A DNA stretch of 64,000 nt from Diacronema lutheri (taxonomy: Eukaryota > Haptophyta > Pavlovophyceae > Pavlovales > Pavlovaceae). The stretch lies in the NCBI GenBank assembly GCA_019448385.1, contig JAGTXO010000012.1, forward strand, positions 394,501 through 458,500, in the 5' to 3' direction. The notes below the pieces were generated by a model. It was not told the origin of the DNA. It searched no databases and saw nothing but the letters and a program-made list of their open reading frames with translations. Position 1 is the stretch's first letter. Each line of letters starts with the position of its first letter. Position numbers and translations under genes: made by a program. This document shows, piece after piece, positions 38,317-63,801 of the stretch.

Positions 38317-39528
38317 ATGCGCGCGCTTGAAGTGCTGCTCGCGGCGTGCGTGTGGCATGTCCCTTCCGCGTCGTGCATGGCCTACGCCGGTGCCTACGGT
38401 GCCGCCACGAGCTCTTCCGTGGCGCCTGCTCGGCTGCGGCCACGCGTCGCCGCCGCGCGCGCTCCACGATCAAGGCCTCAACAGTCTGTCGACGCGCGCG
38501 CGCTCGCGGCCATCGCGCTCCCGCTCATCGGCGCGCCGCTCTCGGTCGCCGCGCTGCTCGCCGCGGAGCGGTCGGGGATGTGGGCGCGTGGCGTGCGCGC
38601 TGATCCAACTGATTGGCCGTCGTCGGCGTGGCGTTGGTCGGGCGCCCGCGGCGTCGAGCTCTTTGCGGACGGCGACGTGCGCGTCCTCTCGCACGCGGCC
38701 GGCGAGTGGCGAACGCTACGCCTTGGCGCATCGGTGCAGAGCGCCGCGAGGTGCTCACGCGCGGCGGGTGGCGTGGACCCTACCGCGCCGGCCTTCCCGT
38801 ACGTCAAGGTGATGGCGTCGCTCGCGGCTGCACTCGCGTTGGTGCCGTGCGCCGAGTCGTCGGCGGCCCTAGAGCCGGTCCGCGCGCTCTTCCTCGGCGG
38901 AGGCGCGTGCTCGTTGCCACGGCTGCTCGAGAGCGCCCTGGCGCCGCGCGCAGCGTACCGTGACGGACGTGTCACACTCACGGTCGTTGAGCTGGACGCG
39001 CGCGTCGCGCAAGCTGCGCGCGAGTGGTTCGGCGTGGGCGCGGGCGATGGCACTCTCGTGCAGATCCAAATTGCGGACGCGCAGAGCGCGCTCGAGAGGT
39101 TTGCGGGCGCCGACTTTGATCTCGTATGCGTGGACATCTTTGGCAAGGACAACGCGCAGCCGGGCGCCTTCGCCACGAGCGAGCGCTGGCTTCGGCAGGT
39201 GCGCGCGGCGGTGCGCCCTGGCGGAGTCGTCCTCGCCAACTTCCACTCGGGCACCGACGAGGCGAGGGCTGTGCTCCGCGACGGCCTACGCGCGTACGCT
39301 GGCGTTTTTGCTGCTAGCAGCGCGTGGCGCGTGCATGAGCAGGCCAACGTTGTCGTCGCTGCGGCCGTCGGTGGGCACGCTGCCGAGCTGCTCAGCAAAG
39401 CGGGGGGGTTTGAGCCTGGCGCGCTCGACGAGCTCGCCTCGCGTGCAGAGCTGGTCGCGCGCCGAGGGGGGTGGCAATTTGATGTGCGTACCGCACTCAA
39501 GCGCAGCGCTCCAACAAGACGGGCCTAG
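38317..39528 (+). CDS. Spermidine-synthase-like methyltransferase-fold protein
   Basis: 403 residues from the ATG at 38317, chosen because MRALEVLLAACVWHVPSASC resembles a signal peptide; the frame is open further upstream to 38191. Central motifs match the SAM/dcSAM-binding Rossmann fold of polyamine synthases and relatives: RALFLGGGACSLPRLL (motif I), LTVVELDARVAQAAREWF (acidic end of strand 2), ADFDLVCVDIFGKDNAQPG and RPGGVVLANFHS. Substrate-specific residues cannot be read, so spermidine synthase activity is not claimed. A second hydrophobic stretch (IALPLIGAPLSVAALLAA) could be a membrane anchor. Its TAG stop overlaps, on opposite strands, the TAG stop of the RWP-RK gene within CCTAGG. 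Confidence 0.7.
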   Translation: MRALEVLLAACVWHVPSASCMAYAGAYGAATSSSVAPARLRPRVAAARAPRSRPQQSVDARALAAIALPLIGAPLSVAALLAAERSGMWARGVRADPTDWPSSAWRWSGARGVELFADGDVRVLSHAAGEWRTLRLGASVQSAARCSRAAGGVDPTAPAFPYVKVMASLAAALALVPCAESSAALEPVRALFLGGGACSLPRLLESALAPRAAYRDGRVTLTVVELDARVAQAAREWFGVGAGDGTLVQIQIADAQSALERFAGADFDLVCVDIFGKDNAQPGAFATSERWLRQVRAAVRPGGVVLANFHSGTDEARAVLRDGLRAYAGVFAASSAWRVHEQANVVVAAAVGGHAAELLSKAGGFEPGALDELASRAELVARRGGWQFDVRTALKRSAPTRRA

Positions 39529-40184
39529 GTGGCGCCCGTGGGGGGTGGGGGTTCTAGCGCGCCGGCAATTGTGTTGGCTGCGCCCGTGGGCGCAGCCAAC
39601 ACAATTGCCAGCTGGGCACGATCAACGATCTGGTCGCGGCCGATCGCAATTTCGGCCATCGCGTTCGCGGCCATCAGCTGCCTCTTCTTGTGGAACGCAG
39701 ACTGATCCTTGGCCGTCAGCTTCCGGTACGGCCAGCGCCCGACGCCGTTCTTGCGGCAGATGCGCTTGACGAGCGTCGCGCACACGTTGAGTCTTTCGGC
39801 CGCCTGCGTCAGCGGCAGCTCAAAGTGGCGCGCGACCTCCTCAAACGAAAGCTCAATCTTCCGTCGTGGTGTGAACGAGGCGCGCTGTGGTTTGGTCGCG
39901 ACGAGCTCCCCATTCTTTCGCGATTGCGACTGAATTTGACGATGCGGCCACCGCGAGACGCCGTTCTCGCGGCAGATGCGCTTGACGAGCGTCGCGCACA
40001 CGTTGAGTCTTTCGGCCGCCTGCGTCAGTGGCAGATCAAAGTGGCGCGCGACCTCCTCGAACGAGAGGTCGGCCTTGCGCATTTGGGCCTGCGGCCTCCC
40101 CGCGAGGAGCCGCAGGCGGTCCCCGTGCCGGTTCGGACTTTGTATAGTCTTCGGGTTTGTTTTCGGGTTTTTCCCATTCTTCAA
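39525..40184 (-). CDS. Protein with two RWP-RK domains
   Basis: 219 residues in one exon. Two RWP-RK units of about 45 residues repeat almost exactly: SFEEVARHFDLPLTQAAERL...NGVSRWPHRQ near residue 40 and SFEEVARHFELPLTQAAERL...NGVGRWPYRK near residue 112, each with the VCATLVKRICR core. RWP-RK proteins are DNA-binding regulators of nitrogen response and gamete development in plants and algae. Having two units in one small protein is unusual; the nucleotide identity of the units indicates recent duplication. The C-terminal ~50 residues are Ala/Pro-rich and their DNA contains a perfect 22-bp inverted repeat. The start codon at 40184 is the first in frame. Confidence 0.75.
   Translation of the reverse strand: MKNGKNPKTNPKTIQSPNRHGDRLRLLAGRPQAQMRKADLSFEEVARHFDLPLTQAAERLNVCATLVKRICRENGVSRWPHRQIQSQSRKNGELVATKPQRASFTPRRKIELSFEEVARHFELPLTQAAERLNVCATLVKRICRKNGVGRWPYRKLTAKDQSAFHKKRQLMAANAMAEIAIGRDQIVDRAQLAIVLAAPTGAANTIAGALEPPPPTGAT
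39564..39609. repeat. Perfect 22-bp inverted repeat with 2-nt loop
   Basis: Arms 39564-39585 and 39588-39609 are exact reverse complements (left arm starts GGCAATTGTGTTGGCTGCGC), separated by GT. It lies in the 3' coding end of the double RWP-RK gene, 36 bp from the convergent stop codons. It could form a strong hairpin in either transcript and act in 3'-end formation. Confidence 0.9.
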
Positions 40185-40240
40185 CGCCGAAACTTGATCT
40201 TCTGAAAAGGTCAGTCACTTGGATGAGTCGGGCCGCCAGG

Positions 40241-40678
40241 TCAGCAAGGGCTCGTCAGGGTGTGATGTGACCCCATCACGTCGCAGTACTGCAGCGTCGC
40301 GTGGCCGAGCCCGCGTGCGACGTGCGCGATCTCGCTGCCCCGCACGAGGCTGCCGTCGGCGACGCGCGGCTGCTCGGCGGCGATTCGCTCCTTCTTCTTG
40401 CGCGACTGCAGCTTGCGGTGAGGCCATCGCGAGACGCCATTCTCGCGGCAGATGCGCTTGACGAGCGTCGCGCACACGTTGAGTCTTTCGGCCGCCTGCG
40501 CGAGTGGAAGGTCGAAGTGGCGAGACACGTCGGCGAACGACAGCTCGCGCCCCTTGCGCACGCGGCGGGGGCCGGGCGACGTGGCGCCGCCCGCCGACGA
40601 CGCGCGCGCGACTGAAGGCGCTCCGTCGCCGTGCGTGCCCGGTGGATCGCCCGCGGCCAGGCCGGCGCGCACCAGCAT
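40241..40678 (-). CDS. Protein with one RWP-RK domain
   Basis: 145 residues from the ATG at 40678. After a ~45-residue Gly/Ala/Ser-rich leader comes KGRELSFADVSRHFDLPLAQ, then the same VCATLVKRICRENGVSRWPHRK core as in the neighbouring gene, and a short tail ending HHTLTSPC. The DNA at 40448-40545 is nearly identical to the two RWP-RK blocks at 39750-39860 and 39968-40076, so the three domains arose by local duplication. The frame is open upstream through a GC-repeat region, but a TATATA at 40744-40749 makes the 40678 start more credible. Confidence 0.65.
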   Translation of the reverse strand: MLVRAGLAAGDPPGTHGDGAPSVARASSAGGATSPGPRRVRKGRELSFADVSRHFDLPLAQAAERLNVCATLVKRICRENGVSRWPHRKLQSRKKKERIAAEQPRVADGSLVRGSEIAHVARGLGHATLQYCDVMGSHHTLTSPC

Positions 40679-40743
40679 CCCGGCGAGCGCCGTCGCGTGC
40701 ACGGAAGTCAAAACACACCAAAAAAAGGTGCACAGCGAGTCGG

Positions 40744-40749
40744 TATATA
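40744..40749 (-). promoter_or_regulatory. TATA-like box upstream of the single-domain RWP-RK gene
   Basis: TATATA (palindromic) about 66 bp upstream of the 40678 ATG on the - strand, followed by an A/T-rich stretch (CCTTTTTTTGGTGTG on the sense strand). It stands out strongly in this GC-rich region. Confidence 0.45.
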
Positions 40750-40755
40750 CGACCC

Positions 40756-43700
40756 TTACGGGGCGTGCGAAGCCGCAAGCGGCTCGTGCTGAGGCTGAAG
40801 ATCGCCATGAAGCGTTGTTCTCAGCAGGGTGTGGCAGGCGCGCTTCGTCGCGCCACCGGCTGCGCCGCCGCGCGGCGCCGCCACGCGCGGCGCCGCGTGC
40901 GCGCGCGCGCGCACGGCGGCGGCCGCGTCCTGTGCGCCACTGCGGCTCGCCCGTGCCCGCTTCGGGCCCGGGGGCGTGGCGCGCGTGCTCGGGCTGGCCG
41001 AGCCGCCCCGCCGCAAGGTCGCCGCCGACCGGCGAGGGGCTGCGCCGTTCGCGGCTGCCGTGCTGACGCGACGCTGGCGCTTCGCCTCCGGCGCCGCGTC
41101 GCGTGCGGACGCGAGCGAACCTCGCGCGTTGCCGCCGGTCGTGCCGGTGCCGGCAGCGGCAGCGGCAGCGGCGGCGGCGGCGGCGGCGGTGGCGGCGGCG
41201 TGTGCGGCAGCGGCTGCGGCACGACCGGCGGCGCCGGCAGCACCAGCACTGCCGCTGCGGCCGCGGCCGCGGCCGCCGCTGCGTCCGCCGCCGCGTCCGC
41301 CGCCGCGGCCGCCGCCGAGGACGCCAACGCCGCTGCCGCCGCCGCCGGCGCCGGCGCCGCCGCCGCCGCCGCCGCCGCGGCTGCCGGCACCGCCGCCGCC
41401 GGCACCGCCGCCGCCACCGCCGCCGCCGGAACCGCCGCCGCCGCCGCCGCCGCCGCCGCCCGCCTCGTCTTCGTCCACCTGCAGCTCGCCCTTGTCGTGC
41501 TCTCTCTCGCGACCGAGGGCGCGCTGCCAAAAGGCCTTGACGCGCTTGAAGCGGCCGGGCTCGGACGTGATGCGCTCATGCCTGCCGAGGTGGTCGACGA
41601 CCATGTCGAGCACATCGTGGTAGATGCAGCGCGCCGCCGTCCAGTCGCGGTGGTAGATGATGCCGCACGCGTCGCACCGCGTCGCCCGCCACGCGCCGCG
41701 GCCGCTCGGCGAGCTGCGCGCGTACGGGTGCAGCGTGCCTCCGCATCGCTGCTGCGGCGGCGGCTGCCCCGCCGCCTCGTCCGCCGTCGTCGGCGCGCCG
41801 TCGTCGGCGGGAGCGCCTGCGCCGGCGTCGGCGGCCGGCGCCGCGCTCGCAGCGGGCGCGCCCCGCACCTCGCGCAGCTGCGAACAGCACTTGGAGCTGA
41901 GCGGCTCGGGCACGAGCGTCGCCGCGACGCCGCGCCGGCGCAGCGCGCGCAGCACGCCGACGCCGAGCGCCGGCGCCTTGCCGCGCACGCAGCCGCCGCC
42001 GCGCGACCGGTGGAGCCAATCGCCGAAGAGCACGAGCAGCTGGTCTGGCCGCAGCCCTCGGTCGGTCGCGTGCGCGCGCACGATCCGCGCCGCCGCGCGC
42101 GCGCACTCGCGCCGGCCCGCGCCGCCGCGCCGCTTGCGCGCGCGCAGCCGCGCGCGCGCGCCGTACACGGGCAGCGTAGCCCGTCGCACGCGCTCGTGCG
42201 CGCGCGCGTAGGCGGCCTGGTCGTTCGCGCCGAGCGCGGTGCGCCCGCCGTGCGCCGCGCCGAGCTCCGCCTCGAGCGCGGCCGCCGTCGGCGGAGCACG
42301 CGGCGCGCGCGGCCGCGCGCCGCCCGGCCCCGACGGGCCGGCGCGCGCGCCCGGCTCGACGAGCGGCCGTTGCCGCGCGCCCTCGAGCTTGCTGCGCTCG
42401 CGCGCGTGCCCCGCGCGCGCGGCGCGCTCGCGCTGCGTGAGGCGAACCGAGGTGGGCTCGAGCCCGTGGCCGTTCGGCGCGTACGTCACGAAGCCGTCGG
42501 AGCCGGGGTCCACCGTGGCCGTCTTGAGGCCGTGCACCTCGATCGCCTCGGCCAGCTGCTCGGGCGTCGCGTCGTCGAACGTGCCGTTGGGATCGCGCCA
42601 ATTGTCGAGGAAGGACTTGCTGCCGCCGGGCGGCGGCGGCTTGAACACCGGCACGACCACCTGCCAGGCGTGGCCGTTGTGGCGCATGTACACCGCCAGC
42701 TGCGGTCCGGCGGACGCGGTCGCGGGTGGGACGGCGGTGCCGACATACGTGGGCCGCTGCTCCGCCGTCACGTCGCTGCCGGGCAGCTGCTGGCCTGTCC
42801 GCTGCATCGCCCGCTCGTCGAGGCTGACGAAGTGGGAGAAGATCATGTCCCTGACGCGCGGGTCGCTGGTCGCGGTGCGCGGGTCGTCGTGCGGCACGCC
42901 GTCGGCCGTCGGCAGCTTGCGCACCCAATCGCGGACGAAGGCCGTGTCGTCCTCGTCGAGCAGGAGGTACAGGTCCTGCGCGGACAGGTCGACAAAGCGC
43001 TTCTGCATGCTCCCGCGCCGGGGGCAGAGCGCGTACGGCGGCGGCTCGCCGGTGACGTGCGTGTACAGCATCGCGAGGCGCGCGAGCAGCGACGCGCCCA
43101 TCGCCGCCTTATCCGGCTGCGCGGCGCACGCAAGGGAAGGAAGGGGGGAGGGGGGGGGGGGGTGGAGGTCGGGGAGCACGCCATCAGCGCCGTCGAGCGC
43201 TCCGCGCGCCGTGGCCCTGCTGCGCGCGCGCGCGGCACGTCGTCCGCGCGGCGCGCGCCCGGCCATGCCTGGCCGCGGCGCCGCGCCGCGGAGCGCGCGC
43301 GCGCGGGGCGCGCCGCGGCACGCGCGCGGCGCCGCGCGGACGGCGCGGCCACCGTCGCGCGGCCGGCCCGTGCGTAGCCCCCTCCGTCCCCGCGCGCGCC
43401 GCGCGGCGCGCGCGCGCGCGCGCGCGCGCGCGCACCGTCAGGAAGTAGTTGGTCGTGTGCCTGACCTTGGGGTCAGGCGTGCTGTAGTCGCATGGGAGCA
43501 CGAGCCAGTCGGCGTGCTGCGCGAGCGCGGGCGGCAGCCGCGGCGCCGCGCCGGCCGTGTCGCCGGACCACAGCAGCTTGAGCAGCGTCGCGACGTCCGC
43601 GTCGCGCTGCTCATTCGACGCGCGCGCACCGCGCGGCTTGTCGGCCTCGCCCGCGTCGATCGCCGCGCGCAGCAGCTTGCGCAGCAGCTTGTACGCGACG

Positions 43701-46700
43701 CGGCGCGGGTGCATCTTGTACGCGGTGAAGATCTTCTGCGCCTCGGCGTCGACGCAGCCTTGTAGCGAAGGGTGCGAGCGCGCCGTCGGCGCGTCGCCCT
43801 GCGACAGCCGGTCAATGTGCCGCTGGTTGCGCGCCCGCTGCGCCGCGTTGGCCTCGCCGAGCGGATGGCCGCGCTTCTGGTCGGGCGGCAGCTCGATCTG
43901 GCGGATCAGGTTCTCCACGTCGTCCTCGCCCTTGGGGTAGCCCTTCAGCTCGTCGTCTGGGCGCTGCAGCTCGTCGCCGGGCGAGCACTGCCCGGCGTTC
44001 GGCAGCGATGTGTGCGCGCGGTCGTTGAGCACGTTGTACGTCATGCGCGTGCTGGCGTTCGCCTCGTCCACGACGCGTATCAGCTTGACGCCGTACTTTG
44101 CCCGCCCGCGAAAGGCGCCGTCGCTGAGCTCCAGGGTCCGGTACTCCGTGTGCCAGCCCTTCGGCTTCTGCAGGCAAGCGATGCGCTCGCCCGTCGCGTC
44201 CGGCGGCTCGGCCGGCGGCTCGGCGCTCGCGCAGCACGCGCAGGCGGACGCGTTGGCCGCGCCGGCCGCCGGCGCGGCCGTCCGCGCGGCGCGGCGCGGC
44301 GTCGCGGCCGGCTCCGCGCACTCGCCGCACGCGAGCACGCCCCCGCCGACCGCGCCGCCCGCGCGCGGCCGCGCCGCCGCCGCGCCGCGCCCGGACGCCG
44401 GCGCGGTGCTCACCGGCGACGTGAGGAGAGCGGCCTCGCGCTTGGCCTCCGCGCGCAGCCACGCCTCGAGCATCCAGCCGGCCGCCTGCGCGTCGCGCTC
44501 GCGCGGCCACACGCGCCCGGCGTTGCCCAGCAGGCCGCCGCGCTCCACGCGCAGCACGCACAGCGCGAGCGCGAGCGCCCACACGCCCGCGCGGCCGGCG
44601 GGCGGCACGTACGCACGCGAGCGCTCCGACCGGCGCAGCTGCTCGAGTTTCGCGTCGCCGCCGAACAAACGCGCGACGAGCCCGCCCGCCCAGCTTGTCG
44701 CCGCCGCGCCCGCCGCGCCATCGCGCGGCGCGCGCTCGAGCAGGAGGAACCGGCGCCAGCGGCCGCTCGGACCTGCGCGGTGCTCGTCGGCGGCGAGCAG
44801 GAGGAGGAGCTGCGGGTCGGCGCCGTCGCTCGGCGAGTGGACGAGCAGCAGCGCGTCGCAGTCGGTACCGTCGAGACGCTCGCGCAGCCGCTCTTGCGCG
44901 GCCTGGTGCCGTGCGTCGCGCGCGTCGAGCAGCGCGCGCGTTTCGCCCGGGCCGAAGAAGGCGCGGAACCCGCGCGCCGGGTCGCGCACCTGGGCGAGCA
45001 CGCCGTCAATGGCGGCGGTCGCCACGACCGCATGCTTGCCGCCCGATGCCTTGAGCTCGTTCAGGCACCGCGCGTAGGGCTTCTCCTCCGTCGGCGCCGC
45101 CGACGCCGGCGCGGACGCGACCGGCTGCTGCGCCACCGCCGCGTCGCGCGCTCGCAGCTGCGCTGCCGTCTCGCGCAGGATGAGCGCAAACACCGCCGCG
45201 CGGTACTCGGCGAGCTGCGCCGTCGCGTGCACGTTGAGCGCAAGCACGCTCGCCGCGGCAGCGAGCGCGCTCTGGTCGCCGCCGCCATCGCCGCCGCCGA
45301 CGCCGCCGCCGCCGCCGCCGACGTCGGCGGCGGCGTCACGCGCGCCGAGCGCGAGCCAGGACATGACCACGACGCAGGCGGCGCGCGAATCCGCCTTGCG
45401 CTCGACGCGCCAGCGGCCGCCGACCGCGCGCCCGTGCGCCGTCGGCTGCGCCGACCGCGCGGTCGCCGGCGCAGCGCCGTCGACGGGCGGAAGCGCGCGC
45501 AGGCGGAGCGCGCGCGCGAGCCCGCGGACGAGCTGCTCCGCCTGGCGCTCGATCTCCTTGGCGCGCTCGCGCACGGCGATCGGCTTGGCCCCCGTGGCGC
45601 GCTCCGGCGCGGCGGTCGGGTTGTAGTGCTGCACCCAGCCGCCCTCGCCGTCGCGCACGACGACCACGACGGCCGCGCCGACCCGCCGATTGGTGCTGGC
45701 GAAGAGCAGCGCGAGGTGCGTGCACTTGCCGAGGCCGTGCTTGTCCAGCGCGGCCTGCGCGCGATCGGGCTCGCCGCCGCCGTCGGCGACGGCGGCGAGC
45801 AGCGCGCGCGCGACGGCCGGTCCGGCCGTCCTCCACGGCCGGCCGGCTTTGTCCGCGGCGCGGTTGATCGCGCCGAGCTCGGCCTCGACGACGATCGAAG
45901 GCACCTCGGTGTACTTGCCCTGGAGCGCGCGCACGTCGTGCGTCGACAGCCGCCGCCCGCCACACATGTACGTGAGCGGCGGACCGCCGGGTCGCGCCGC
46001 CGCGTCGACGCGCGCGGTGTCGGCCGCGAGCCGCGCGCGCGCCTCGGCATCGCGCTTGCGCTTGCGCGGCAGCGGCGGCAGGTGCGGCGCGACGCGGCGG
46101 CCGCGCGACTCGCCGGCCGGCTCCGCGCTCGGCGCGCCGGGCGCGCCGGCCGGCGCGCCCGCCGCGCGCGCGCTCGCGCCGCCGCCGCGCGCGCGCGCGC
46201 CGTCCGGCTCGGCCGCGTACACGAGCAGCAGCGCGCGGCCCTCGAGCGCGACCCTCGCGGTGCACGCGCGCCTGCTCGCGGCGGCAACGCGCATCCAGTC
46301 GCGATCGCCGGGCGCGAGGGCAGCGCAGGCGACGAGCCGCTCCTTGTCGTCGCACGCGTCGCGCAGCACGACGGCGACCAGCCTGAGCACGGCGGCGGGC
46401 TCGGCGGCGGCGTCGGCCCCGGCGGCGTCCGCGGTCGGCTCGGCCGGCTCGGCGCCGCGCGCGACGCGCAGCGCGAGCCGCTCGGGCATCTCGAGCAGCG
46501 ACTCGGTCGCGTCCGCGACGTGCACGACGACGAGCCGCGGCGGGTTGCGCACCCCGTGCGCGCCGAGCGCGCGCGACACGGCGGCGCTGGCGCTCGCGCC
46601 GCGCGCGTCGGCGGCGCGCAGCGCGACGAGCGGCCACGCGGCCGACGCGCCGCGCGCCGAGGGCGCGCCCGGCGCCGGCGGCTCGCCGCCGCGCAGCGCG

Positions 46701-49700
46701 CGCTCGAGCTCGTCGCTCGCGCCGCACGCGCGCAGCACGTCGAGCAGCGCGCGCAGCGCGCCGTCGGCCGACAAGCCGCGCGCCGTGCCCGCCGGCCAGC
46801 CCGCCGACTGCTCGAGCGCGGCGGCGAGCGGCGCGACGCGCGCCGACTCGGGCGCGCTCTCGTCATCGGGCTCGAGCGCGTTGTGCAGGCGCGCGAGCGC
46901 GCGCGCGACGGCCGCGGCGCCACTGTCGGGGGCGCGGCTCGCCGCGCGCACCGCGCGCCGCCAGGCCGGCACGAACATGAGCGCCGACACGAGCGCCGCG
47001 AGCGCGCGCGCCTCGCGCGCGTCGCTCGCGCCGAGGCGCGGCGGCACGCGCGCGGCGCCGCGCGGCGCGGTGCCTCGGAAGCGTGGGCTTAGCGTGTAGG
47101 CGAGGTGCTGCGGCACGCCGCGCGCCTCCGCGAGCGCGCGTCCGTCCTCGACCTCGCGCCACGCCTCCTCGATCGCCGGCGTGGCGCGCGCGAGCCAGTC
47201 GGGGTCGGCGGGCAGGTGGATCACGACGAGAATCGGCGCCCAGTCCAGCCGCGGGTTCTTGTGACGGTCGGGCACGACCCACACGAGCAGCACCGTGCCC
47301 TCCGCGCCGCACGCCGCCTCGTAGATCCTGGGCTGCGAGCGCCAATCGGGCTTGACGCGCAGCGCCCGCGCGTGGACGATGGCAGCGGCGCGGTCGCCAT
47401 CGAAGTGAACCGTCTTCACCTCGCCGATGACGGACCGGCCGGACCGCCAGCAGAACACCGCGTCCGCCGACCCGCCGGCGATGGCCGCGAGCGGTTCGGG
47501 CGCGGCGAGCCGCGGCAAGCCCTCGAAGACGGCAAAGTCCTCGTCCGCATTGTACACGCCGCCCCAGCCGTCGAGCGCGTACGCGCGCGCGGCCGCTCGT
47601 ACCGCGTGCAACTGGTTCTCCACGCCCGACGTCATGTGCCATGTCGTCCCCGCGAAGCCGGGCTCGCCCAGCTTGGCCAGCACGACGTTACCGTACCCCG
47701 CGCCCTGCGTCAGGGCGGCGAGGCGGTGCATCTCCGCGCCGGTCATGACCTCCGGGCGCTGCTGCGTGACGATCGTGCCCGTCGCGTGCGCGTCGAGCGT
47801 GTCGACCACGGCGGGCGCGCGCCCGCTGTTCGCCTCAAGCCGCGCCCTGCCCGCTTTTAGCTTCTCGGGGTCCTTGGCGTCGTACACGCGCGCGTCCGCG
47901 TCGCCCTGTCCAGGCGCAGTGTAGACGCAGCGGCGTTCGCGTTCGAGCGGCGCCGAGCCACCGCCGTCCGCCGCCGCCGGCGAGGTTGGCGCCGCGCCCT
48001 CCGCCACCGCGCTCGTCGCCGCCGTGCCCGTCACCACCACCGCCGCAGCCGTCGCGCCCGCGCGTGGCGCGCACGGCGCCCTCGGTGCCGCGACGGCCGC
48101 CGCCGCCGCCACGACGAGCGCGCCCGCCGCCGCGTTCGCCGCCACGTGCGCCACCGGCGCGCCGAGCGGCGCCGAGCCACCGCCGCCCGGCGCCGCCGGC
48201 GGGGTTGGCGCCGCGGCCGTGGACGCGGCGGCGGAGGGCGCCGCGAGCGGCACGTCCCACCGCCAGCGATGCGCCGCAACGGCCACGGCCGCGCGCTCGA
48301 CACCGTCGCGCGCGTCGGGCAGGCCGGCGATGTGCGCGTTCGCACTGCGGCACATCTCGTCTGCGCTCGTGCAGCGCGCCCACGCGTCGCCGAGGTCGTG
48401 GCACACGACCGCACGCGCGAGCAGCGCGAGCTCGAGCGCAAGGACGTGCGGCTTCGCGCGCGCGACGCCGTCGATCGCGACGTGCGTCGGCTCCGTGCTG
48501 AGCAGCTCCGCGCTGCGCAGCTCGCCGACGTGCGCGCGCGCGATGCGCCAGTCGTCGTCGCCGCCGACGCGCGGCGCGACGAGCAGCGGCCTCGCGGGGG
48601 CGCCCGCCGCGCGCGGCGGCAGCACGACGAGCAGCGCCACGACCCTTCCGCCTGTGCCATCGCGCAGCGCGACGACGAGCCTGGGGCGGAGTGACGGCGT
48701 CGACCGGCGCGTGCGTTTGCGGACGCCGTCGGCGTCGGCCGCGCTGCGCGCCTCCGCGAGCACAACGTCGCCGTCGCGCGCCGCCCACGCGCCGTCGACG
48801 TGCGCGCGCGCGAAGAGCGGCGCGAGCTCGGCGGCCGCGAGCGCGGCGCACGCCGACGGCGCGTCCGCCCCGACGCGCAGCACGTCGAGCGCGTCGCGGA
48901 GCGGCGGCGCCGTGTCCGTCGCCCACCGCCACACCTGCTCGCCGTGCGCGTCGAGCGCGCGCGCGACGGCGCACAGGCGCGCCTCGTCGGCCGCGCCGAC
49001 CACTCGGCGCGCCGGCGCGTGCGGCTCGACGCGCTCGTACAGCGCGACCACGGCGAGCTCGCGCGCCTCGGCCGCCGCGCTGCCAGCGTTGTCTCGCTGC
49101 CTGCCGCCGCCGTCGACGCGCCACCAGCCGCCGTCGGGCGCGGGCGCGAGCACGGCGCACGCGTCGCGCTTGCGGCCGCGGCGCTGGACGAGCACGCTCG
49201 CCAGCGCGAACGTCGCGTCGGGGCCGCCGACGGTGCCGAGCACGAGCGCGCCGCCACCGCCGCCGCCCGGCCCGCCGAGCTCGACCGGCTCCCTGTCGGT
49301 CGACGGGCGGTCGATCGCGACCAGCAGCGCACGCGGCGCGCTCGAGAGCCGCACTCCGCCGAGCAGCTGGGCGACGTCGCGCACGCCCGGCGCGCCGCGC
49401 TGCCCCGGCCGCGGCGCGACGCGCAGCATCGTGAACGGCGCGTCGGCCGAGCCGTCTTCGCCGGCGCAGACGCCGGAGAAGAGCTGCCAGTCGGGCAGGG
49501 CCACGTGCAGCTCGGCGACGAGCCGCTCGGCGACGCGGCGCGCGTCGCGCAGCTCGTCCGTGCGCCGCCGCGAGCGCTTGGCAGCGCAACGCGGATCGCG
49601 CAGCGCGAGCAGCAGCTGGCGGAGGCGCAGCCGCGCGCGCACGTCCGACAGCCGCGCGACGCGCACCAGCAGCGAGCGCAGCACCTCAAAGGGCGCGCGC

Positions 49701-49917
49701 TTCGCGTCCAGCGCGTCGCCGCGCGCGCCGCCGGACGGCGCAAAGGCGAGCGCCAGCTGCTCGCGCACAGTCGCGGCGGCCGCGAGCAGCTCGAGCACCG
49801 CCTCGGGGCTGGCCAGCGCGAAGTCCTCTGGGGCTGCCGACGGCGAGCCTTGGCCGCCGCCGCCGCCGCCGCCGTCGCCTCCGTCGCCGCCGCCGCCGCC
49901 TCCGTCGCCGCCGCCGC

Positions 49918-49966
<49 letters not shown>

Positions 49967-51151
49967 GCCGCCGTCGGCGGAGTCGTCGTCGGTGTCGTGA
50001 CCCGCATCGTCGTTGGAGAGGTCGTCGTCCCCGTCCTCCGCGTCCTCCCCGTCGTCAGCGGTGGTGGCGTCGCCATCGCCCCCGTCGCCCTCGCCCACGC
50101 CGAGGCTGCTGAATGGTCGGTGCCCCCACGCCGAGGCGGCGCGCCGCTGCGGCGCACGCGGCGGTGGCGCTCGCGACGGCGGCCTTGGCGCCGCCGCGCC
50201 GCGCGGCCTGGCCGCCGTCGACAGCGCGCGGCCTGCAGCGCCCGTGAGCGCGTCGAGCGCGGCCGTGCGTGCGATGCGGTCGTCGGGCGCGCGCAGCGCC
50301 GCCTCGACGGCCTGCAGCAGCCCGTCGGGCGCGGATCCGCCGACACTGGCACCGCACGCCTCGGCGAGCCGCGCGGCCTCGGCGAGCCGCGCGGCCTCGT
50401 CGGTGAACGCGCCGCAGCGCCTGGCGCCGTCGTCGAGCAGAGCGCCGACGGCGGCGTGGAGCGTGCGCTTGCGGGCCTCCTCGTACGCGGCCGTCGTGAG
50501 TCGCGTGAGGCGCGCGTCCAAAGCCTTCTTGATCCCGACAAGGACATTCGCGCGGCGGCCCGCCGTCGGCGCTGCGCTCGCCGCGACCTCGGCCGCGAGT
50601 GTTGCCGCGGCGAAGCAACACTCGTTCCCACTCTGCGCGGGCGCCTTCAAGGCATCGATGGGCGGCGCTGGGATGCCGATGCGCTGGGCGAGCGTCGTGA
50701 TGAGCTTGCCGGCCGCCGTGGCGTGCGCCGACTTGCCATTGCCCAAGCTGAGCGAATCGGCGTGCAGGGCGAGCGCGGCGCCGGGCGGCGCGCCGCGCTG
50801 CGCGGGCGGCGCGAGGAGCAGGTACGCCGCCGTCCAGTGATCGAGGCCGCTGGACGCGCGGAGGCAGAGCGGTAGCACGACCACGAGCACCTGCCCAAGC
50901 CGGTCCGCATCCGCGCATGCTTTGCCCAGGTTGCGCAGCGCCACCTTGAGCGCATGCTTCGAGCACGCCTTGAACTCCACCTTGACCACGCTCGGGCCGA
51001 GACTCTCGCCATGCAGCAGGGCGAGGACGCACTCGGGTGGGACCACGTGGGGGTGGCGCACACTGTTCGCCACGGTGGTGCTGAGGGCCAGCGAGAAATT
51101 GTCCGAGCTGCCCAGCCCGCCGCGCAAAGCGTCCTTCACGGAGTCCTCCAT
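40756..51151 (-). CDS. Giant fusion protein: C48-like protease, nuclease-like core and C-terminal Fanzor (OMEGA) nuclease
   Basis: Two exons (51151-43436 and 43116-40756) join in phase 0 across a 319-nt GTGCGC...CAG intron: about 3358 residues. N-terminus: a Ulp1/C48-like catalytic pattern with GLDHWTAAYLLL (His105), LHADSL (Asp132) and AQSGNECCF (Gln173, Cys178/179). An acidic Gly/Asp-repeat region spans about residues 350-430, and a stretch near residue 670 (DGGWWRVDGG) recalls deubiquitinase His-boxes. Near 1230-1245, SADAVF plus SVIGEVKTV resembles a PD-(D/E)xK nuclease core. Exon 2 holds a Fanzor/TnpB nuclease: RuvC-I TATVDPGSDGFVTYAP (about 2774), VLFGDW, RRRGVAATLVPEPLSSKCCS with the candidate RuvC-II glutamate (about 2974), a second Cys pair (RCDACG) and RuvC-III IIYHRDWTAARC (about 3063). 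Basic C-terminal clusters (PKRARASR) may be nuclear signals. Family knowledge: Fanzors are RNA-guided DNA nucleases of eukaryotic mobile elements. Nothing breaks the frame. Whether it is one protein needs transcripts. Confidence 0.65.
41140..41465. repeat. GC-only trinucleotide repeat tract in the Fanzor 3' coding end
   Basis: About 325 bp built almost wholly of GCC/GCG/GGC/CCG triplets, encoding Gly/Ala-rich tails on the - strand. Slippage-prone low complexity; all frames are open through it. Confidence 0.8.
43136..43170. repeat. G-rich tract in the Fanzor-gene intron
   Basis: Interrupted G-runs on the + strand (longest about 12), giving a C-rich pyrimidine tract on the sense strand just upstream of the GCGTGCGCCGCGCAG acceptor. 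Confidence 0.8.
49855..49990. repeat. Asp/Gly codon repeat in the giant protein
   Basis: Tandem GCCGTCGCC-type units of 9-18 bp encode the acidic Gly-Asp run around residues 390-430. Confidence 0.8.
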
Positions 51152-53527: not shown

Positions 53528-53863
53528 CAGGCGGCCATCGAGCCGCATTAGCACACCCGCCCGGGGCCTCCCGCCGCACCCGCAGCGGCTCGGCGCCTTG
53601 AATCCTCCCGTCCCCTGGGGTGAGGCCTTCAACCCGGGCCCAGCGCGCTCCGACTGCCTCACGCGCGCCAGCGCCAACCTCGGCGGCATGGTAGGCCCCG
53701 AGCGAAAAGCCGCACTTCTCGCCGTCCTCGTCAGGCGCAAGTACGTTACGCTGCTCCTACTGCCGACGCGGCTCCCGCGCGCGCGGACTACTACGCCGGG
53801 CAGATCGCCGCAGACGCACGTGAGTGCACACGTGCGGACAAGGCGCACACGCTCGACGTCCAG

Positions 53864-55316
53864 TTAGCGCACGTGCACGTGCGCGCCACTGGTCACATTT
53901 AAGCGTCCGTGCTCGCCCACAGCGTCGCCATCCACAAGATGCGCGCTGGAGCCATCCAAGCAGGGCTCTGCCTGCTCGGCTTCCGCAAGGCAATTTGGGC
54001 CGCGGACAGCGGACAGCGGACGGCGTGCGCGTGCGAGGTGCGAAAGGAGAAAGGAGGTAGGGAGAGTGGTGTGTGTGTGTGTGGGGGAGGGGGGGGGGGG
54101 GGGGGGGGGGGGAGGGCACAGCGGCCGCCGGAGACGAGGACGCACTCACCGCTGTTGGCAATGCGCGCGTCACGGAGGCAACTTGGCGGGCCTCGCACGC
54201 AGCTGGGCCGATCGCCGCCGTAGAGATGTCTGCAGCCGTCTCCGCGATGCCGATCGTCGCATCTGTTGGCACCGCTGCCATCTGCCGCACCCGCGGCCAG
54301 GCTGCCGGCCAGGTCGGCGCGTCGGGCTCCGAGCTCGGCCACGCAGGCGATGCGGCCGACGGCGGTGACGCTGAGCCCAGCGCCGGGTCCAACGGCTCCA
54401 CGTCGAGCCGGCTGTAAAAGAGCATGCTCGCACCACTTGCCCACGCCAGCGCGTCGGACTCAGGCACGTTGTAGATCTGCGCGGGCAACGCGCGTGCGTG
54501 CGGCAGGCGCGCGCGCGAGCTTTCAGGCCACGCGCGCGTGCCGCGCGGGAGGACGGGGCGGTTGCGGCTGCGCTCGACCGCCGGTCGCGGCACCGAGCGA
54601 CCGTGCGCGCCGCCGCACGTTGTAGTCGTCGCACGGAAACCAAGCCTCGTTGCGGAGCACGATGGCGACAAGGTGCCCGCTCATCGGCCCCTCGCCCACG
54701 TGCACCACGCCGGCGACGAGGAGGTGGTCGCGCCCGCCGAGTGGCAGCCGCGGCGCGCACACGAGCGCGCGGTTGTTCTTGCACTGCGAGCCATTGCCGC
54801 GCGTCGTGCGCGGCACCTCGACAGCAATGCTGGCTGGCGTGAGCACGCCCGAGTGGCACGCGTTCGTGTGGCCATCCCGCGGCGGCCCAGCGGCGCCCCC
54901 CAGAGCGTGTGCAAGCGCGCGCGCCGCATCGCCGCCGACGCTGACGAGTACGGCGATGCCCTCGCCGGACTCTGAAGGCACGGCGATCTGCTCGAGCACT
55001 GGCCCGACGCGTGTGTCGGCTTCGAAGGCAGCAGCGAGCCCGGGCACTCGGCCGAGCAGCAACCGGAAGAACTCAGCGGCATCCTGCGGCGTCCTTCGCG
55101 CGCCACGGCCCGAGATGACGTCGATGACGGACACAAGACACAGCTGTGTCGGCGCCTTGGTGTCCTCGATCAGCGTGCCAAAGTCCCGAAAACGCGCCCT
55201 CTCGACGCTGTTGGCACGGCGCGAAGCGGAGCGAAGCATCGCACGGAGCACGTTCAGGGCGAAGAGCGATTGCATAAGGCCGGTCGTGTAGCACGCGTTG
55301 CCCTCGTTTTTCGCGC
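53864..55316 (-). CDS. Ubiquitin-specific protease (USP/UCH family), 5' exon not resolved
   Basis: Three exons are placed: 55316-54619, 54476-54150 and 53971-53864, the last two borders in phase 0. The Cys box AKNEGNACYTTGLMQSLFAL opens the first of these. The His box GEGPMSGHLVAIVLRNEAWF plus CDDYN closes it, and exon 2 continues IYNVPESDALAWASGASMLF-YSR, exactly the end of a USP domain. Cys, His and Asp are all present, so it should be active. Exon 3 encodes AEPCLDGSSAHLVDGDAVGE and stops at 53864. The second intron has a full GTGAGT donor and contains a 24-nt C-tract on the sense strand. Exon 1 starts at a phase-1 acceptor; the upstream exon may end at a GTGAGA donor near 55,458, but its start is unclear. 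USPs remove ubiquitin from proteins. The catalytic domain is shorter than usual because no finger insertion is visible. Confidence 0.75.
54089..54112. repeat. G homopolymer, 24 nt, in an intron of the USP gene
   Basis: Preceded by a (TG)n run; a C-tract on the sense strand of the intron. Confidence 0.9.
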
Positions 55317-57229
55317 CTGCGCCGCGCCGCGCAGCGCCGGGTGTGCGGGGTGCGCATGCAAGGTTTACGGCGGGGTGGAGCGAGGCCAGAATGGGCGCGC
55401 GCCGAACCCGGCGAGCCGTGCAGGCGCTCACCACGCGGCACGCCGGGCACTCTCACCGGGCACATCGGGCCGATGCCCTCGCTCCCCACAAATTGTCGCC
55501 CGCGACGGGCTGCGCAGCAGAGAAGATGGAGGAAGGACGAGCGAGGATTGAGCGCAGGTCGGCGTGGTGGCGCGGCAAGACGAGCGCGCGCCGGGCGCCC
55601 GGCGATGAGGCGCGCCCGCGCGAGGACGCGAGCCGCTTCTCGCACCGGACGGACGCCCAAGCGCAAACTGGGTTTGGAGAACAGCACGGACTAGCCGGAC
55701 GCCACGGGGGAGGGGGGTGGTGTGTGTGTGTGTGTGTGTGTGTGTGTTGGGGTGGGTGGGGGGGGGGGGGGGGGGGCGGGCGGGGGCGGGCGGGGGGGGG
55801 GGGGGGGGGGGGGGGGGGAGGCGATGCGTGGAATTGCCCAGGGCAAGTGCGCATGATACCAGCGCGCTTATGCGTGCGCATGCAGCGGGCGGCGCGCGCG
55901 TTGCGCGTGACGGGGCGCCGAGCGGCACACCGGCGGGGACGCGCTCGCCGCTGCCGTGGCATCCTCCGCTGCCGGCGTGCTGGCACGCACGCGCATTGCT
56001 GGCGACGGGGATCGGCGAGTGCGCCTTGGCCGACCACAGGCGCGAACGTTACGCCCGAGCGCGTGGTCGAGCAGCGGGTGGAAGCACCCTTCGTCGTGCG
56101 GCGGCGACCCACGCCGACGGCACGCAGCGCCGGCCCAGGCGCGCATCCGCCCGACGCGGATTTGGACGGCGCGTCGATCGGCACGCCGGGCGTCTGCGCC
56201 CGCCTCACGGCCGGTCGCGCCGGCCCCTCTTCGGCGCGCGGCGTGTTCCGCGGACACGCAAATGTACTGTGTGCGCCGGCCGCGACGACACGGCGTAGCG
56301 GAACGCGGCTGGCCGCCGGGGCCATGGGCGTACTGCCGTGGCGCGACGCCAGGGCGTGAGTGCTCCTGCTCGCGCGTGCGCAGATGGCGCGCGGGCAGGC
56401 GTCGCCGCACCGCCACGCCGCTCACGGCGTCCAGGCGGACGTGGACGCCTGCGGCGGCGTGGACGGCGTCTGCTTCCGGCGCGGCGACAGCGGCGGCGGC
56501 CGACGGGGGCCGGCGAGGGGTGGCTAGGCGTGTGTGCGTGTCCGCCCAGGCCGCGTCCAGCCGCGTCCTTGCCGTCCCGGCGTCGATGTACGGCCACGGC
56601 GTGTCGGATCCGCCCCGCAGCCAGGACCGCAGCTTCGTCCGGCCACGCAGCGGGCTACCGCGCGTTGTGCGCGCCCGGCGCGAGTGGTGCGAGTGGCGAA
56701 CCAAGCCGCGTCGCCCACGGAGCTCGCCCCCGGCTCGGCGGCGCGCCGCTGCCGCGTGCTCGCCGGGTCGCGCACCGCCGTCGCCGCCGCTACGCGCTTG
56801 CCCGGCTTGCCGGCAGGCGGCGGCGACGGCGGCGGCTGTGGCTGCGGCGGCGGCGCGAGCGCGACGCCGGGCGGCGGCAGCGCCGATGGCACGCGCGCGG
56901 CGGCGACCCACGCGGCGGCGGGCAGCGCGCCGGCTTAAGGCCTTTGCGCGCCGGCCGCGTCGGCGCCGCCCTGCGCGCCCCGGACGGGCGCGCAGGTACG
57001 CGGGTCGGTTCGCGCGGCGCGCGGCGCTGGCCAGGGCCCGCCGGCTGCGCGTCGGCCGCGAGCGACGCGGCGGGCGTCGCGCCGGCGGAGGCGTGCCCGC
57101 CACGCCCGCAGCCGGCGGCGCGCCCGCCGTCAGCGCGCCGCCCACCGCCGGCGCCGCGCGCGCCGTCCGCGCCGCGCCCGCCGCGCCCGCCGCCGCCGCA
57201 GCCTCGCCATCGCTGGCCGCGCGGAGCAC
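55317..57229. other. Accessory region upstream of the USP gene
   Basis: About 1.9 kb. It probably contains the missing USP 5' exon (before about 55,460), then a TG microsatellite (about 55,722-55,747), two G-runs (55758-55776, 55792-55818) and dispersed repeat B. No family motif was recognised in the long GC frames of either strand. Confidence 0.5.
56360..56580. repeat. Dispersed repeat, copy B (first copy at 8777-9000)
   Basis: About 221 bp, matching copy A along its whole length with roughly one mismatch per ten bases by eye and few gaps. Both copies keep an open - strand frame. Confidence 0.75.
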
Positions 57230-59608
57230 CTCCTTGAAGACGACGTTGCGCGTCGCGGCGTCGCGAGGTCCGCGCCGAGCGCAAAGCGGATGCACGACGC
57301 GTGCCCGACGCGCGAAGCGGCCACGTGGAGCTGACCGTGCATGAAGCACGGCTCGGCGAGCCACACACGCCCGCGCACCCGAGCGTCTGCCCCCGCGCCT
57401 TGCTGATCGTCCTCGCAAACGCCGGCCGCACCGAGAACTGGCGGCGCATCCATGCAAACGCGAACGTGCCGTCGTCAGGCGAGTGGTGGTCGACACGCGC
57501 AATGAGCACGGTGCTGTCGCGCCCCGCGGCCGCGCCGGGGCGTGCGCACTCGAGCAGCCGGCCGCCGGCGTGCACGCCGCGCACGACCAGCCGCGTGCCG
57601 CTGCACAGCCCCTCGCAGGGCGAGAGGTTGCGCAGCAGCATCACCACCATCCCGGGCTACAGGTCGAGGACGTAATGCGGCATCTGCGCGTGCTCGAGCG
57701 AGTAAGGGAACTCGACCGACGCCAGCGCAATCTGCCCGCCCGCCATGTCGTCGCGCCAGCTCGTCCGCCGACTCGCACCTCGCCGCCGCGCCCAGGAAGC
57801 GGCCGATCACCAGCCAGTTGATCCGCGCCACGTCCGTCTGCTTGGCGCAGAGCACCGCGCGGTCGCACAGCCAGCCGTCGTCGGTCCAACACGCCGCGCC
57901 GTGGACAAAGTCGTCGCGAGCTCCGTCGGGTAGGCCGAGCCCACGCGGATGGGGACGCCGCCGACGGCCTCGGGCAGCTGCACGGGATCGAGCGGGAATG
58001 CGCCGGGCATGGCCCCGGCCGCCGACACCGCCGCGGGAAAGGCGCCGTCGCCGGGGCTGCGCGGCAGCTTCGCCCACTCGCCCGCGCCGAGCGCGTCGCC
58101 CGTGTCGCGCGCCGCGCTCGAGGCGCGAACGTTCTCGACCAAGGCGTGCGGCCGATCGTGCTGCCACGACGCCGAGTACTTGAGGCAGGAGCGTGCGATC
58201 TGCGCGCACGAGCCGCGCCGCACCACTGGCAAGCATTGGCAAAAGTCGCCGGCGAGCAGCAACGTCTTGCCGCCGAAGCGCTCGTCGACGCCTGTCACGT
58301 CGCGCAAACACCGATCAGGCGAGTCGAGGTGGCACCGCGTCTGCATCGGCGCCTCGTCCCACACGACCAGCCGCCGCGGCGGCCAGGGAGCGCCCGCGCT
58401 CGGAGCGCGGCACGCCATTGAGCGGCTTGCCCGTCTGAGTCGGCACCGCCGGGCACCTTGAAGGTCGAGTGGAAGGTGCGGCCGTCGGGCAGCAGCGTGG
58501 CGGCGACGCCAGAGGACGCGCCCACGACGACCGCGTGCCCATCCGCGCGCACGGCGGCGATGATGGCGCGCTCGACGAACGTCTTGCCCATGCCACCCGG
58601 CGCGTCGCAACGATGCAGCCGGTCGCCCACGCCGCGCAGCGTCGATTCGACGACCGCGCCGTGGAGCGCGCGCTGCTGGCCGCCCTCGGCCATCGCCACG
58701 CGCGCCGCCGCCGCGCTCGCAGCCCGCTCGGCGCGATCGTAGCCCGGCGCGCGCGCGAGCTCGCGCCCGCCCGGCCCGGCCGGCGCGCGCGCCGTGCGCA
58801 GACCGGCCACCGCCGCGAGCGCCGCCGCGCGCTCGCGCTCGTCGGGCACGTACAGCCCCGTGGAGTCGAACGTGTCGGCCCAGGCGGGCACGCCGTACGA
58901 GGCGAAGGCGTCCGAGCCGGGCTGCGGCCGCTGCTCGGCGCGCTTCAGGAGCATGACCCCGCACACGTTCCACTTGGTGCCAAACATCGAGCCCGTGAGC
59001 CCCGTGTAGACGCAGTCGAGCTGCGTGGCGATGGCGCAGACGTCCTCGTGCCGGATCTCGTCGACCGGTTCGCGCCGCGCGTCGACGAGCGGCACGACGC
59101 GCTCGGAGCCCGCCCACGTGAACGTGCGCGTCGACATGTTCAGCCGCGTGTGCGCGAGCGTGTCGTCCTCGTACTTGGGCTTGACGGTGGGCGAGAGCTT
59201 GCCGCGCACCTCCTCCTTCGAGAGGCCGCGCGTGTTGAGCAGCTCCTTCTGGCGCGCGTGCACCGTCTCGACGCGCTGATCGTCGATGGCGCGCAGGGCG
59301 CCAAAGTAGGCGTCCATCTGCGCGAGCGGCGCGCCGGCGATCGGCAGCTCCTTGTCGGTCACGCCGACCGTGTACGCCGCCTTGTCGACGTCCGTCGGCC
59401 CGTACATGGTGCCAAAGTTGCCGTCGCCCGTGAGCTTGGGCCAGTCGACGACGCAGGGCGGCGTGACGAAGGCGAGCGCGCGGCGCGACGGCCCGTAGCT
59501 CAGCTTGTCGACCGTGCGCGCCTTCTCGCTCGGCTTGACCGGCCGCGTGCTCACGATCTCGCAGTTGACGAGCGCCGCGTCGAAGGCGCGCAGGTCGATG
59601 GCGGCCAT
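57230..59608 (-). pseudogene. Broken gene with SSB-like N-terminus and Pif1-type helicase
   Basis: The intact 5' part starts at MAAIDLRAFDAALVNCEIVS. It encodes about 280 residues (TPPCVVDWPKLTGDGNFGTM; TGLTGSMFGTKWNVCGVMLL) whose pattern recalls single-stranded-DNA-binding proteins of large DNA viruses and related elements; this is a weak resemblance. A Pif1-family superfamily-1 helicase follows: Walker A DAPGGMGKTF, Walker B VVWDEAPM, LLAGDFCQCLPVV, VVMLLRNLSPCEGLCSGTRL, RRQFSVRPAFARTISKARGQ and a final GQLHVAASRV. The motifs are in the right order but fall in different reading frames. I estimate three to five breaks, so it is a fossil. Pif1 helicases occur as host genes, in Helitrons and in viruses; the origin here is undecided. 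The neighbouring transposon starts 44 bp upstream of its ATG. Confidence 0.7.
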
Positions 59609-60004
59609 GGTCGTTTTGCGCGGGAGATCACGCTGCAGGCGGCTCCACAGTATGGGGGGGGGGGGGGGGGGGGGGGGGGTTCGGTTAGTTTTGGAGGTGG
59701 AATAACCGCCAAAAGTACCCGCGCTTCGAAGGCTTCTCGTGGAAGCAAGACGGACGATGGCGACGAATGGACGACAGGGCGTCCTTCCAGAGGCACGTCT
59801 CGGACGAACGCGCCAGTGCGCGACGAGCTGCGCGCTCTCCTTCAGGCACGAGAGCACGTCAAAAATGACCAAAAGTTGGCTAACCTCCAAAACTAACCGG
59901 AGCCATGCCCCCCCGCGTGTGCGTGGCTTCCTCTTCGGGCATTGAATGCTTCCCCACGGGCCAGCCTTTGCATCACAGCTCGACCCGGCGTGGCACGCGA
60001 CCCC

Positions 60005-60005
<1 letters not shown>

Positions 60006-60036
<31 letters not shown>
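60006..60036. repeat. C homopolymer, 31 nt, inside the transposon
   Basis: Lies between the transposase 3' end and the left terminal repeat. Confidence 0.9.
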
Positions 60037-60039
<3 letters not shown>

Positions 60040-60179
60040 CCACCCCTTCCCCCTCCCTCCCCCCCTCTCAACCCCCTGCTTCCCTCGCGACTCATTCGCT
60101 ACGTGAGCGCGCCCCTCGAAGGGTCGGAGGTGGGTTCGAGTAAGCGTCTCGTGTTTATCAATCACACTCAATCATCGTC

Positions 60180-62771: not shown

Positions 62772-62976
62772 GTTCCCGCGCACGACCTCCAAAACTAACC
62801 GACCTCCAAAACTAACCGAACCCCCCCCATAGGTTCGAGAAAAAAAAAGCTGGGCCAACGGTCAGTCGAGCGCCACAAGCAATCCTCGGGAGCCGGTGGC
62901 CCAACCCAACCCAACGATCTTCGTCGCCACCCTTCGCGCGTTTTCCGTTCGCGCCCAAGCAGACAATGAGACCACA

Positions 62977-63261
62977 ATGTCGGTGCTGCTCGGCGCGATG
63001 ATGGGCCTCAGCGGCTCGGTGGCGATCGTGCTCTACGTGCGCGCGCGACGTCGCGAGGTGCAGCACGGGCGCGTGGCGACGCCGCGCATCATCCAGCGCC
63101 AGCTCGAGCTGCAGCTGCCGTGGGGCCGGCCGGACGAGGCATCCGTCGCCTCGCGTGCCGAAACGCCGGGCGTCGAGGCCGCGTCGCGCTCGGTGCGCGA
63201 CGCGGCGCCCGAGCCGGACCCGGACGAGGGCTACGTGCGCGTGGCGAGCGCGGCGTTCTGA
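62977..63261 (+). CDS. Small single-pass membrane protein, hypothetical
   Basis: 94 residues from the ATG at 62977 (an in-frame ATG at 62896 would add 27). MSVLLGAMMGLSGSVAIVLYVRARRR is a clear N-terminal membrane anchor followed by a positive stop-transfer cluster. The cytosolic tail is amphipathic then acidic (PEPDPDEGYVRVASAAF). No family recognised. The pogo-like transposon ends 147 bp upstream, so its promoter may have been affected. Confidence 0.5.
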   Translation: MSVLLGAMMGLSGSVAIVLYVRARRREVQHGRVATPRIIQRQLELQLPWGRPDEASVASRAETPGVEAASRSVRDAAPEPDPDEGYVRVASAAF

Positions 63262-63362
63262 GGCGCGCACGACGTCGCCCAGCCAGAGCAGCCCGGGGCG
63301 GGGCGAGTCCGGCTGCGCGGAGGTCCGGCTCGAGCGGGCGGGCGCCATGCTCTGAGGCGCCG

Positions 63363-63672: not shown

Positions 63673-63801
63673 CGCCGAAGGTGGGAGGAAGCCACCCGTA
63701 TGCGCGCGTTTGAACGTGCGCGGACGGCCGTTGGCTTCGCGCCCTTTCGCCCACGGTTTGCGCGCCAACGGACCAGTCCTCCGCAGGCGCCGCGCATCGT
63801 C

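Follow-up and report, generated by a model that had tools for sequence, protein, structure and literature searches.

The question raised by this locus is whether the haptophyte Diacronema lutheri encodes a Fanzor that is fused to a giant multidomain protein, as an initial annotation of positions 40756-51151 had proposed. The window analysed is a stretch of 64,000 nucleotides, C6:394501-458500 of the D. lutheri genome (43.49 Mb, 103 contigs, 73% GC; PMC8379373), and positions without a contig prefix are those of the window. Handles beginning with C denote contigs and those beginning with L sampled loci; P0003 and P0005 are annotated D. lutheri proteins, and P0001 is the exon-1 protein of 2572 amino acids (aa). 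The gene is best explained as the 3' module of a ~22-kb, probably recently active Helitron-like element, predicted to encode a ~3,360-aa protein with C48-like, PD-(D/E)XK-like and diverged Fanzor parts that would serve RNA-guided retention. This reading, which we consider probable rather than secure, is built on the demonstrated frame, exon joint, repeats and element ends, on conserved candidate catalytic residues, and on a helicase and a ubiquitin protease in the same element.

Gene structure and coding frame

A single two-exon coding unit occupies 40756-51151 on the minus strand, with a predicted product of ~3,360 aa. Exon 1 (43436-51151) is stop-free over 2572 aa, and exon 2 (40756-43116; 786 aa and the stop) holds the C-terminal Fanzor part with its RuvC motifs and TNB region, followed by a Gly/Ala/Arg-rich tail. 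The exons are separated by a GT-AG intron of 319 nt (43117-43435) in phase 0, lying within the Fanzor, in the context ACG/GTGCGC...GCGCAG/CCGGAT (slashes mark exon borders). The two exons, phase-0 join and unbroken frame given in the initial annotation were recovered with exactly the same coordinates. GC content by codon position was 0.81/0.61/0.94 in the exon-1 frame (43184-51151, which takes in 252 nt from the intron start). Exon 2 gave 0.79/0.67/0.91, and the order of the three values is alike in the neighbouring FAD-dependent glycerol-phosphate dehydrogenase-like gene (0.61/0.49/0.90). The periodicity was present in each ~500-nt block of exon 1 and weakened only where exon 2 ends in Gly/Ala-rich sequence. 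Because it spans both exons, a chance open frame of a GC-rich genome was ruled out.

The annotated relatives of exon 2 in the protein database are five KFE25_ proteins, all of D. lutheri and all on other contigs. Each contains the exon joint, as TTNYFLT/PDKAAMG in four and as TTNYFLT/PDRVEMG in the diverged P0003; the joint is also found in family-B DNA and is therefore common to two sequence families. P0003, which aligns to 23% of the exon-2 query at 56% identity, also contains relatives of residues 636-950 and 1458-1631 (each at 42%) and 2472-2572 (68%) of the giant protein. Together with the relative of the D...EVK block, which lies between the first two, and that of the exon-2 start, which comes last, they follow the order of the giant protein. 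Being otherwise shortened and mutually discordant, these annotated models back the joint and the order but do not vouch for the protein as a whole. P0005 (KFE25_011735) has a different N-terminal part of ~1,205 aa on the same Fanzor segment. No protein-database relatives of P0001 or of the canonical Fanzor were found at E 0.001 in a list of 8000 candidates, which was perhaps filled by low-complexity words.

When exon-2 DNA was searched against the genome (best 40 of 568 candidates scored), at least 25 places, including the window copy, were covered in full at 96-100% identity (L009-L033); besides these, one copy was broken and diverged groups matched at 75-83%. Of the 25 copies, 16 (window included; 767-828 aa) have an exon 2 that stays open as far as the stop at the terminal hairpin, and nine are broken or stop early. 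For 14 of the 25, the N-terminal DNA (best 40 of 177 candidates scored; 30 loci, L042-L071) starts 8.1-8.6 kb upstream of the start of exon 2 and on its strand: C6, C69, C12, C28, C46, C4, C1, C85 and two each on C36, C34 and C75. A partial N-terminus was found at one further copy (C46:756938).

The Fanzor part

The C-terminal ~770 aa are, as judged from sequence, a diverged Fanzor with a putative RuvC fold. The Fanzor/TnpB motif is given as D-X(125,275)-[TS][TS]-zinc finger-RD in PMC3627910. It is matched in exon 2 by D203 (42510-42508), E404 (41907-41905), SSKCC and R490-D491 (D491 at 41646-41644; window positions by arithmetic), all invariant in the six alignment rows, which represent two families at 63-64% identity, with 203 residues between D203 and S407. 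The role of E404 as the displaced Glu of this motif is one that we presume. The zinc site has one clear CxxC pair, the other being rearranged (KCCSQL). Of the features originally described, the aspartate-glutamate-aspartate series was recovered, together with one of the Cys pairs.

The TNB-like zinc/RuvC-III region, with CxxC and RDW, was located at 41623-41745 (minus strand). In profile comparison (hhalign), exon 2 matched another Fanzor family of D. lutheri, here termed canonical, from RuvC-II to TNB with a probability of 94.7 and an E value of 6e-8, and the E and RD of the canonical Fanzor aligned with exon-2 residues. The canonical family scores 39.9-44.5 bits to TNB (Pfam PF07282), over the cut-off of 26.3 bits. 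RNA-guided activity of the fused Fanzor is plausible by analogy.

Conservation on the Fanzor side extends ~240 codons back into exon 1, up to the joint, across families (family B and P0003). For this reason the N-terminal side of the Fanzor was placed at the end of exon 1 (43436-44164, minus strand; start approximate), and its confinement to exon 2, as originally drawn, was abandoned. The intron therefore splits the Fanzor, exon 2 alone would be an incomplete one, and this is our best argument for a true fusion.

Element ends and 3' terminal stems

The 3' end at 40743 was reached within a few bases by 23 of the 25 copies, with unrelated flanks; in L026 and L027 the match stops at 41049, and four family-B loci likewise end in TATATAC. 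The 5' part of the element (62830-64000, minus strand) continues to a 5' terminus, CTATATAGGGCGCGG, at C6:460175, 1,675 bases past the window end, and the flanks differ between the two copies in which it was read. The element spans 24.9 kb, or ~21.8 kb without a nested 3.2-kb insertion (59653-62829) at a TA site, which has inverted ends GGTTCGGTTAGTTTTGGAGG..., is foreign to the element and is not in the C69 copy. The mobile element suspected in the initial annotation was therefore confirmed by its many copies and exact ends, although it is far larger than 40756-51151 and also carries a ubiquitin-specific protease (USP) and a Helitron-type helicase. Known Helitrons make no target-site duplication and have either 5'-TC and CTRR-3' ends with a 3' hairpin (Helitron1) or a pair of hairpins (Helitron2). 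The ends of the window element, CTATATAGGG/GTATATAC, are unlike the TC/CTRR of Helitron1; there is a hairpin at the 3' end and, by eye, a hairpin-like 5' end. No target-site duplication beyond TATATA was seen by eye in the two copies with both ends read.

Queries with the 5' end (best 40 of 271 candidates scored) and the helicase (best 40 of 367) each gave at least 40 genome places at 98% or more. The 5' end, helicase and TNB occur in order on one strand on C26 (31042, 27491, 849), twice on C8 (74204, 77755, 104148 and 156095, 159646, 186042) and on C29 (177478, 181028, 207454). When 5' ends and Fanzors are paired by eye, the distances between them fall around 20.7, 25.5 and 30 kb. The window element is therefore one of several large types with a common 5' half and different Fanzors at the end. 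The 5' parts vary among copies, since L040 and L041, sampled at the expected 5' distance, have no match to the window there.

The last 85 nt of the element (40743-40827, minus strand, ending ...CCCCGTAAGGGTCGTATATAC) fold as three stem-loops, based on 12 distinct sequences from 26 loci. Paired cells amounted to 95.2%, a value reached by 30 of 500 shuffles; two compensatory pairs were found in the 3' stems (3 of 500 shuffles), and sliding the pairing partners lowered pairing to 28-46%. In the window copy the stop codon TAA lies inside the last hairpin. The 3' end had no match in Rfam. The guide RNA scaffold of TnpB and Fanzor derives from the 3' end of the element, and the stems are for this reason a natural candidate for the omega-RNA scaffold.

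N-terminal and middle parts of the giant protein

The N-terminal part (50462-51151, minus strand) contains His, Asp, Gln and Cys in order with Q-x5-C spacing. These residues, H105, D132, Q173 and C179, are invariant in all 15 aligned rows, which represent 15 of the 30 loci and include more diverged rows that differ at 12-24% of residues. By eye, the same four residues are kept in the printed sequences of all 30 loci, with the Trp after the His replaced by Cys in L052-L055. The motif, which was defined after the sequence had been seen, arises in 0.2% of 2000 shuffles of P0001. Its residue order and Q-x5-C spacing resemble what we take to be those of C48 (Ulp1-like) peptidases. Because neither Pfam nor the PDB gave the N-terminus a match at E values up to 10 and its AlphaFold model was unusable, it is named C48-like and not a C48 member; the protease originally proposed here survives as a motif.

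The block at 47039-48061 (minus strand) carries D1230, E1244 and K1246. By itself D-x(n)-ExK is expected by chance, occurring in 87% of P0001 shuffles. A BLASTP alignment to P0003 (E 1e-6) covers the D1230...E1244-V-K1246 block, so that a D...(E)xK core is conserved in a homologous family, and the middle core noted in the initial annotation stands as nuclease-like. An abundant related family has EVT, not EVK, in six of six alignment rows. As no PD-(D/E)XK Pfam family matches the block, it is named PD-(D/E)XK-like only.

Possible selection on the N-terminus

Over window 50018-51151 (L042-L071), the proportions of nonsynonymous (pN) and synonymous (pS) differences between family A and the abundant family were 0.100-0.109 and 0.042-0.047, with changes at 4-5 of 209-215 fourfold sites (Fisher p 0.0004 on rounded counts), and the 1.7-kb flank upstream of the N-terminus is 98.3% identical between the two. 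These values hint at diversifying selection or mosaic exchange in the N-terminus and are offered as a lead only. The lead is weakened by the strong bias in GC at third codon positions (GC3), which lowers pS, and by the contrast resting on few changes when only G-C changes are counted. Near-identical A copies have 25 changes in 1699 flank positions versus one change in the N-terminus; because the flank differs as much between these copies, flank and N-terminus are of different histories.

Comparison with known systems

To our knowledge, characterised Fanzors are separate proteins of about 600-1000 aa. Fanzor1 is reported from the Helitron2 elements CRe-1, 2 and 3 of Chlamydomonas, which are described as probably non-autonomous (PMC3627910). 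The D. lutheri element resembles these in having a Fanzor in a Helitron-related algal element, a multi-exon gene and, apparently, end hairpins and no target-site duplication where a copy ends at the consensus 5' end (PMC3627910); it differs in that its Fanzor forms the C-terminal part of a ~3,360-aa protein and in having its own helicase and ubiquitin protease. Helentrons (PMC4067079) likewise have a Helitron-kind PIF1 helicase, accompanied by a cysteine protease, an endonuclease and a single-strand binding protein. They also possess Rep, and in them an AP endonuclease is fused to the helicase and the proteases are of the OTU type (PMC4067079), whereas the D. lutheri element, in which Rep was not found, has C19-type and C48-like proteases and keeps its nucleases in a separate giant protein with the Fanzor. 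SpuFz1 and other characterised Fanzors (PMC10432273) have a C-terminal RuvC and zinc-finger NUC part and use a guide RNA (omega-RNA), a set of features predicted for the D. lutheri protein too; SPu-1-1p is a protein of 633 aa (PMC3627910), in contrast to the ~3,360 aa predicted for D. lutheri. A Fanzor fusion of this kind was not found described in the accessible parts of the open-licence literature (including PMC3627910, PMC10432273, PMC10711439, PMC6338049 and PMC4067079).

Proposed mechanism and alternative explanations

If the gene is indeed the 3' module of a Helitron-like element with RNA-guided retention, the omega-RNA scaffold would be formed by the 3' terminal stem-loops of the element, and DNA just beyond the element end would supply the guide, in line with TnpB/Fanzor systems. 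Sites that match the flank, namely empty donor or allelic sites, would be cut by the Fanzor, and copies would be kept through repair templated by the element. The helicase may drive strand replacement. As for the protease parts, they may strip ubiquitin-like tags off proteins of the host or of the element, or process the giant protein by cleavage. In such a system, RNA-guided cutting would be coupled to a second nuclease as well as to the host's ubiquitin/SUMO control, which would offer a testable reason for eukaryotic transposons keeping Fanzors. With at least 40 near-identical 5' ends in the genome, the guide, target and retention hypotheses are testable on natural insertions. A bolder version would combine an RNA-guided nuclease, working as the C-terminal domain of one multi-enzyme protein of ~3,360 aa (SUMO/ubiquitin-like protease, PD-(D/E)XK nuclease and Fanzor) in a Helitron-like element, with a scaffold formed by the element's own 3' terminus and with diversifying selection against the host acting on the protease end; it is tentative and, taken as a whole, rather improbable.

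Several results weigh against the preferred reading. The TNB region of the window scores 18.7-20 bits (Pfam PF07282), under the cut-off; exon 2 has no PDB match to any Fanzor by sequence or profile, and the canonical family of the same genome itself reaches SpuFz1 weakly (E 0.18). The AlphaFold models of the Fanzor part (pLDDT 36.4) and of the N-terminus (pLDDT 33.8) were unusable. Exon 1 was read whole in the window copy, and the other copies were read near its two ends. Support for the 3' stems is modest, because the covariation rests on a single family-B row. Between families A and B, exon 2 has a pN of 0.227 and a pS of 0.207 (NG86; GC3 about 0.94), and since these are nearly equal, purifying selection on exon 2 was not demonstrated; with G-C changes only, 12.3% of fourfold sites changed versus 8.5-8.6% at positions 1 and 2. 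The Helitron Rep (HUH) was not found in the element, and the Helitron_like_N profile had one match in the whole genome, on C63; a canonical Helitron was rejected on this ground.

Alternatively, the N-terminal and middle parts may not be enzymes, their motifs having arisen by chance in a low-complexity Ala/Arg-rich protein. This explanation, doubtful but far from negligible, agrees with the lack of any hidden Markov model or PDB match to C48 or to a nuclease, with the unusable N-terminal model and with the frequency of D-ExK in shuffles, but it sits poorly with the invariance of the four N-terminal residues in 15 rows despite the divergence of some of them, and with the alignment of the D...EVK block to a diverged homologue. 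The open reading frame may instead yield at least two separate proteins, through self-cleavage by the protease part or through alternative transcripts that part the Fanzor from the rest, so that no fused nuclease acts. A protease-like motif does lie within the same chain, and the gene models annotated for other copies vary a great deal; as the intron splits conserved Fanzor-side sequence and exon 2 alone is without the Fanzor N-terminal part, we regard such a separation as rather unlikely. A decayed or repurposed Fanzor, in which the giant protein is made but RNA-guided cutting has been lost and the C-terminus only binds DNA or RNA, would fit the sub-threshold TNB, the rearranged zinc site, the absence of an excess of synonymous change and the loss of the middle-domain nuclease lysine in the rows of the abundant related family. 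It is nevertheless unlikely, given that D, E and D are invariant over two families, that exon 2 is open in most of the copies and that the 3' stems are retained.

Other genes of the element and further Fanzors in the genome

Upstream of the giant gene, USP (C19/UCH) exons were placed at 53757-55600 (minus strand; joints and outer limits by eye). Pfam UCH scored 42.3 bits (cut-off 23.9) in 54523-55452, USP12 was matched at E 2e-4, and the Cys and His boxes were recognised by eye, which by sequence identifies this neighbour as a C19 ubiquitin-specific protease. The Helitron-type PIF1 helicase (57130-59608, minus strand) lies behind a ~240-aa N-terminal domain in which no HUH was seen by eye. It scored 54 and 76.5 bits to Pfam PIF1 in two frames, and its only PDB match was Helraiser, a Helitron transposase (E 4e-7 and 1.2e-9). 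The frame shifts near 58.4 kb in both the window copy and the C69 copy, which may reflect an old frameshift or another mechanism. The genome's only Helitron_like_N match (C63:35738-36019, 86 bits) is a possible source of Rep in trans. Near the element 5' end, an opposite-strand open piece (L039:4745-5224, plus strand) has a weak RES-domain match (E 0.03, under cut-off). Three RWP-RK domains lie in host DNA right past the element 3' end (39525-40600, minus strand); they were ruled out as a further exon, since the element ends at 40743, before them.

The TNB profile search (best 150 of 306 candidates scored) gave at least 148 TNB/Fanzor matches in the 43-Mb genome. One TNB family of near-equal scores dominates and is found at the 3' part of large elements with the window element's 5' end and helicase (e.g. 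C26:849-31042). At six contig starts (C1, C6, C8, C12, C26 and C29), minus-strand TNB matches lie 669-862 bp into the contig, and the assembly seems to halt there at element 3' ends; the idea of a telomere-targeted element was rejected, as no telomere repeats occur there among the 100 of 212 matches listed. Seven places, among them C5:902639 and C3:286249, hold a third Fanzor-like subfamily. In three cases, two on C5 and one on C3, the facing edges of this Fanzor and of the helicase are ~2.4 kb apart, so that some elements may carry two Fanzors. The canonical Fanzor at L002, L005 and L008 lies within open frames of 1,518-1,681 aa, possibly another long fusion.

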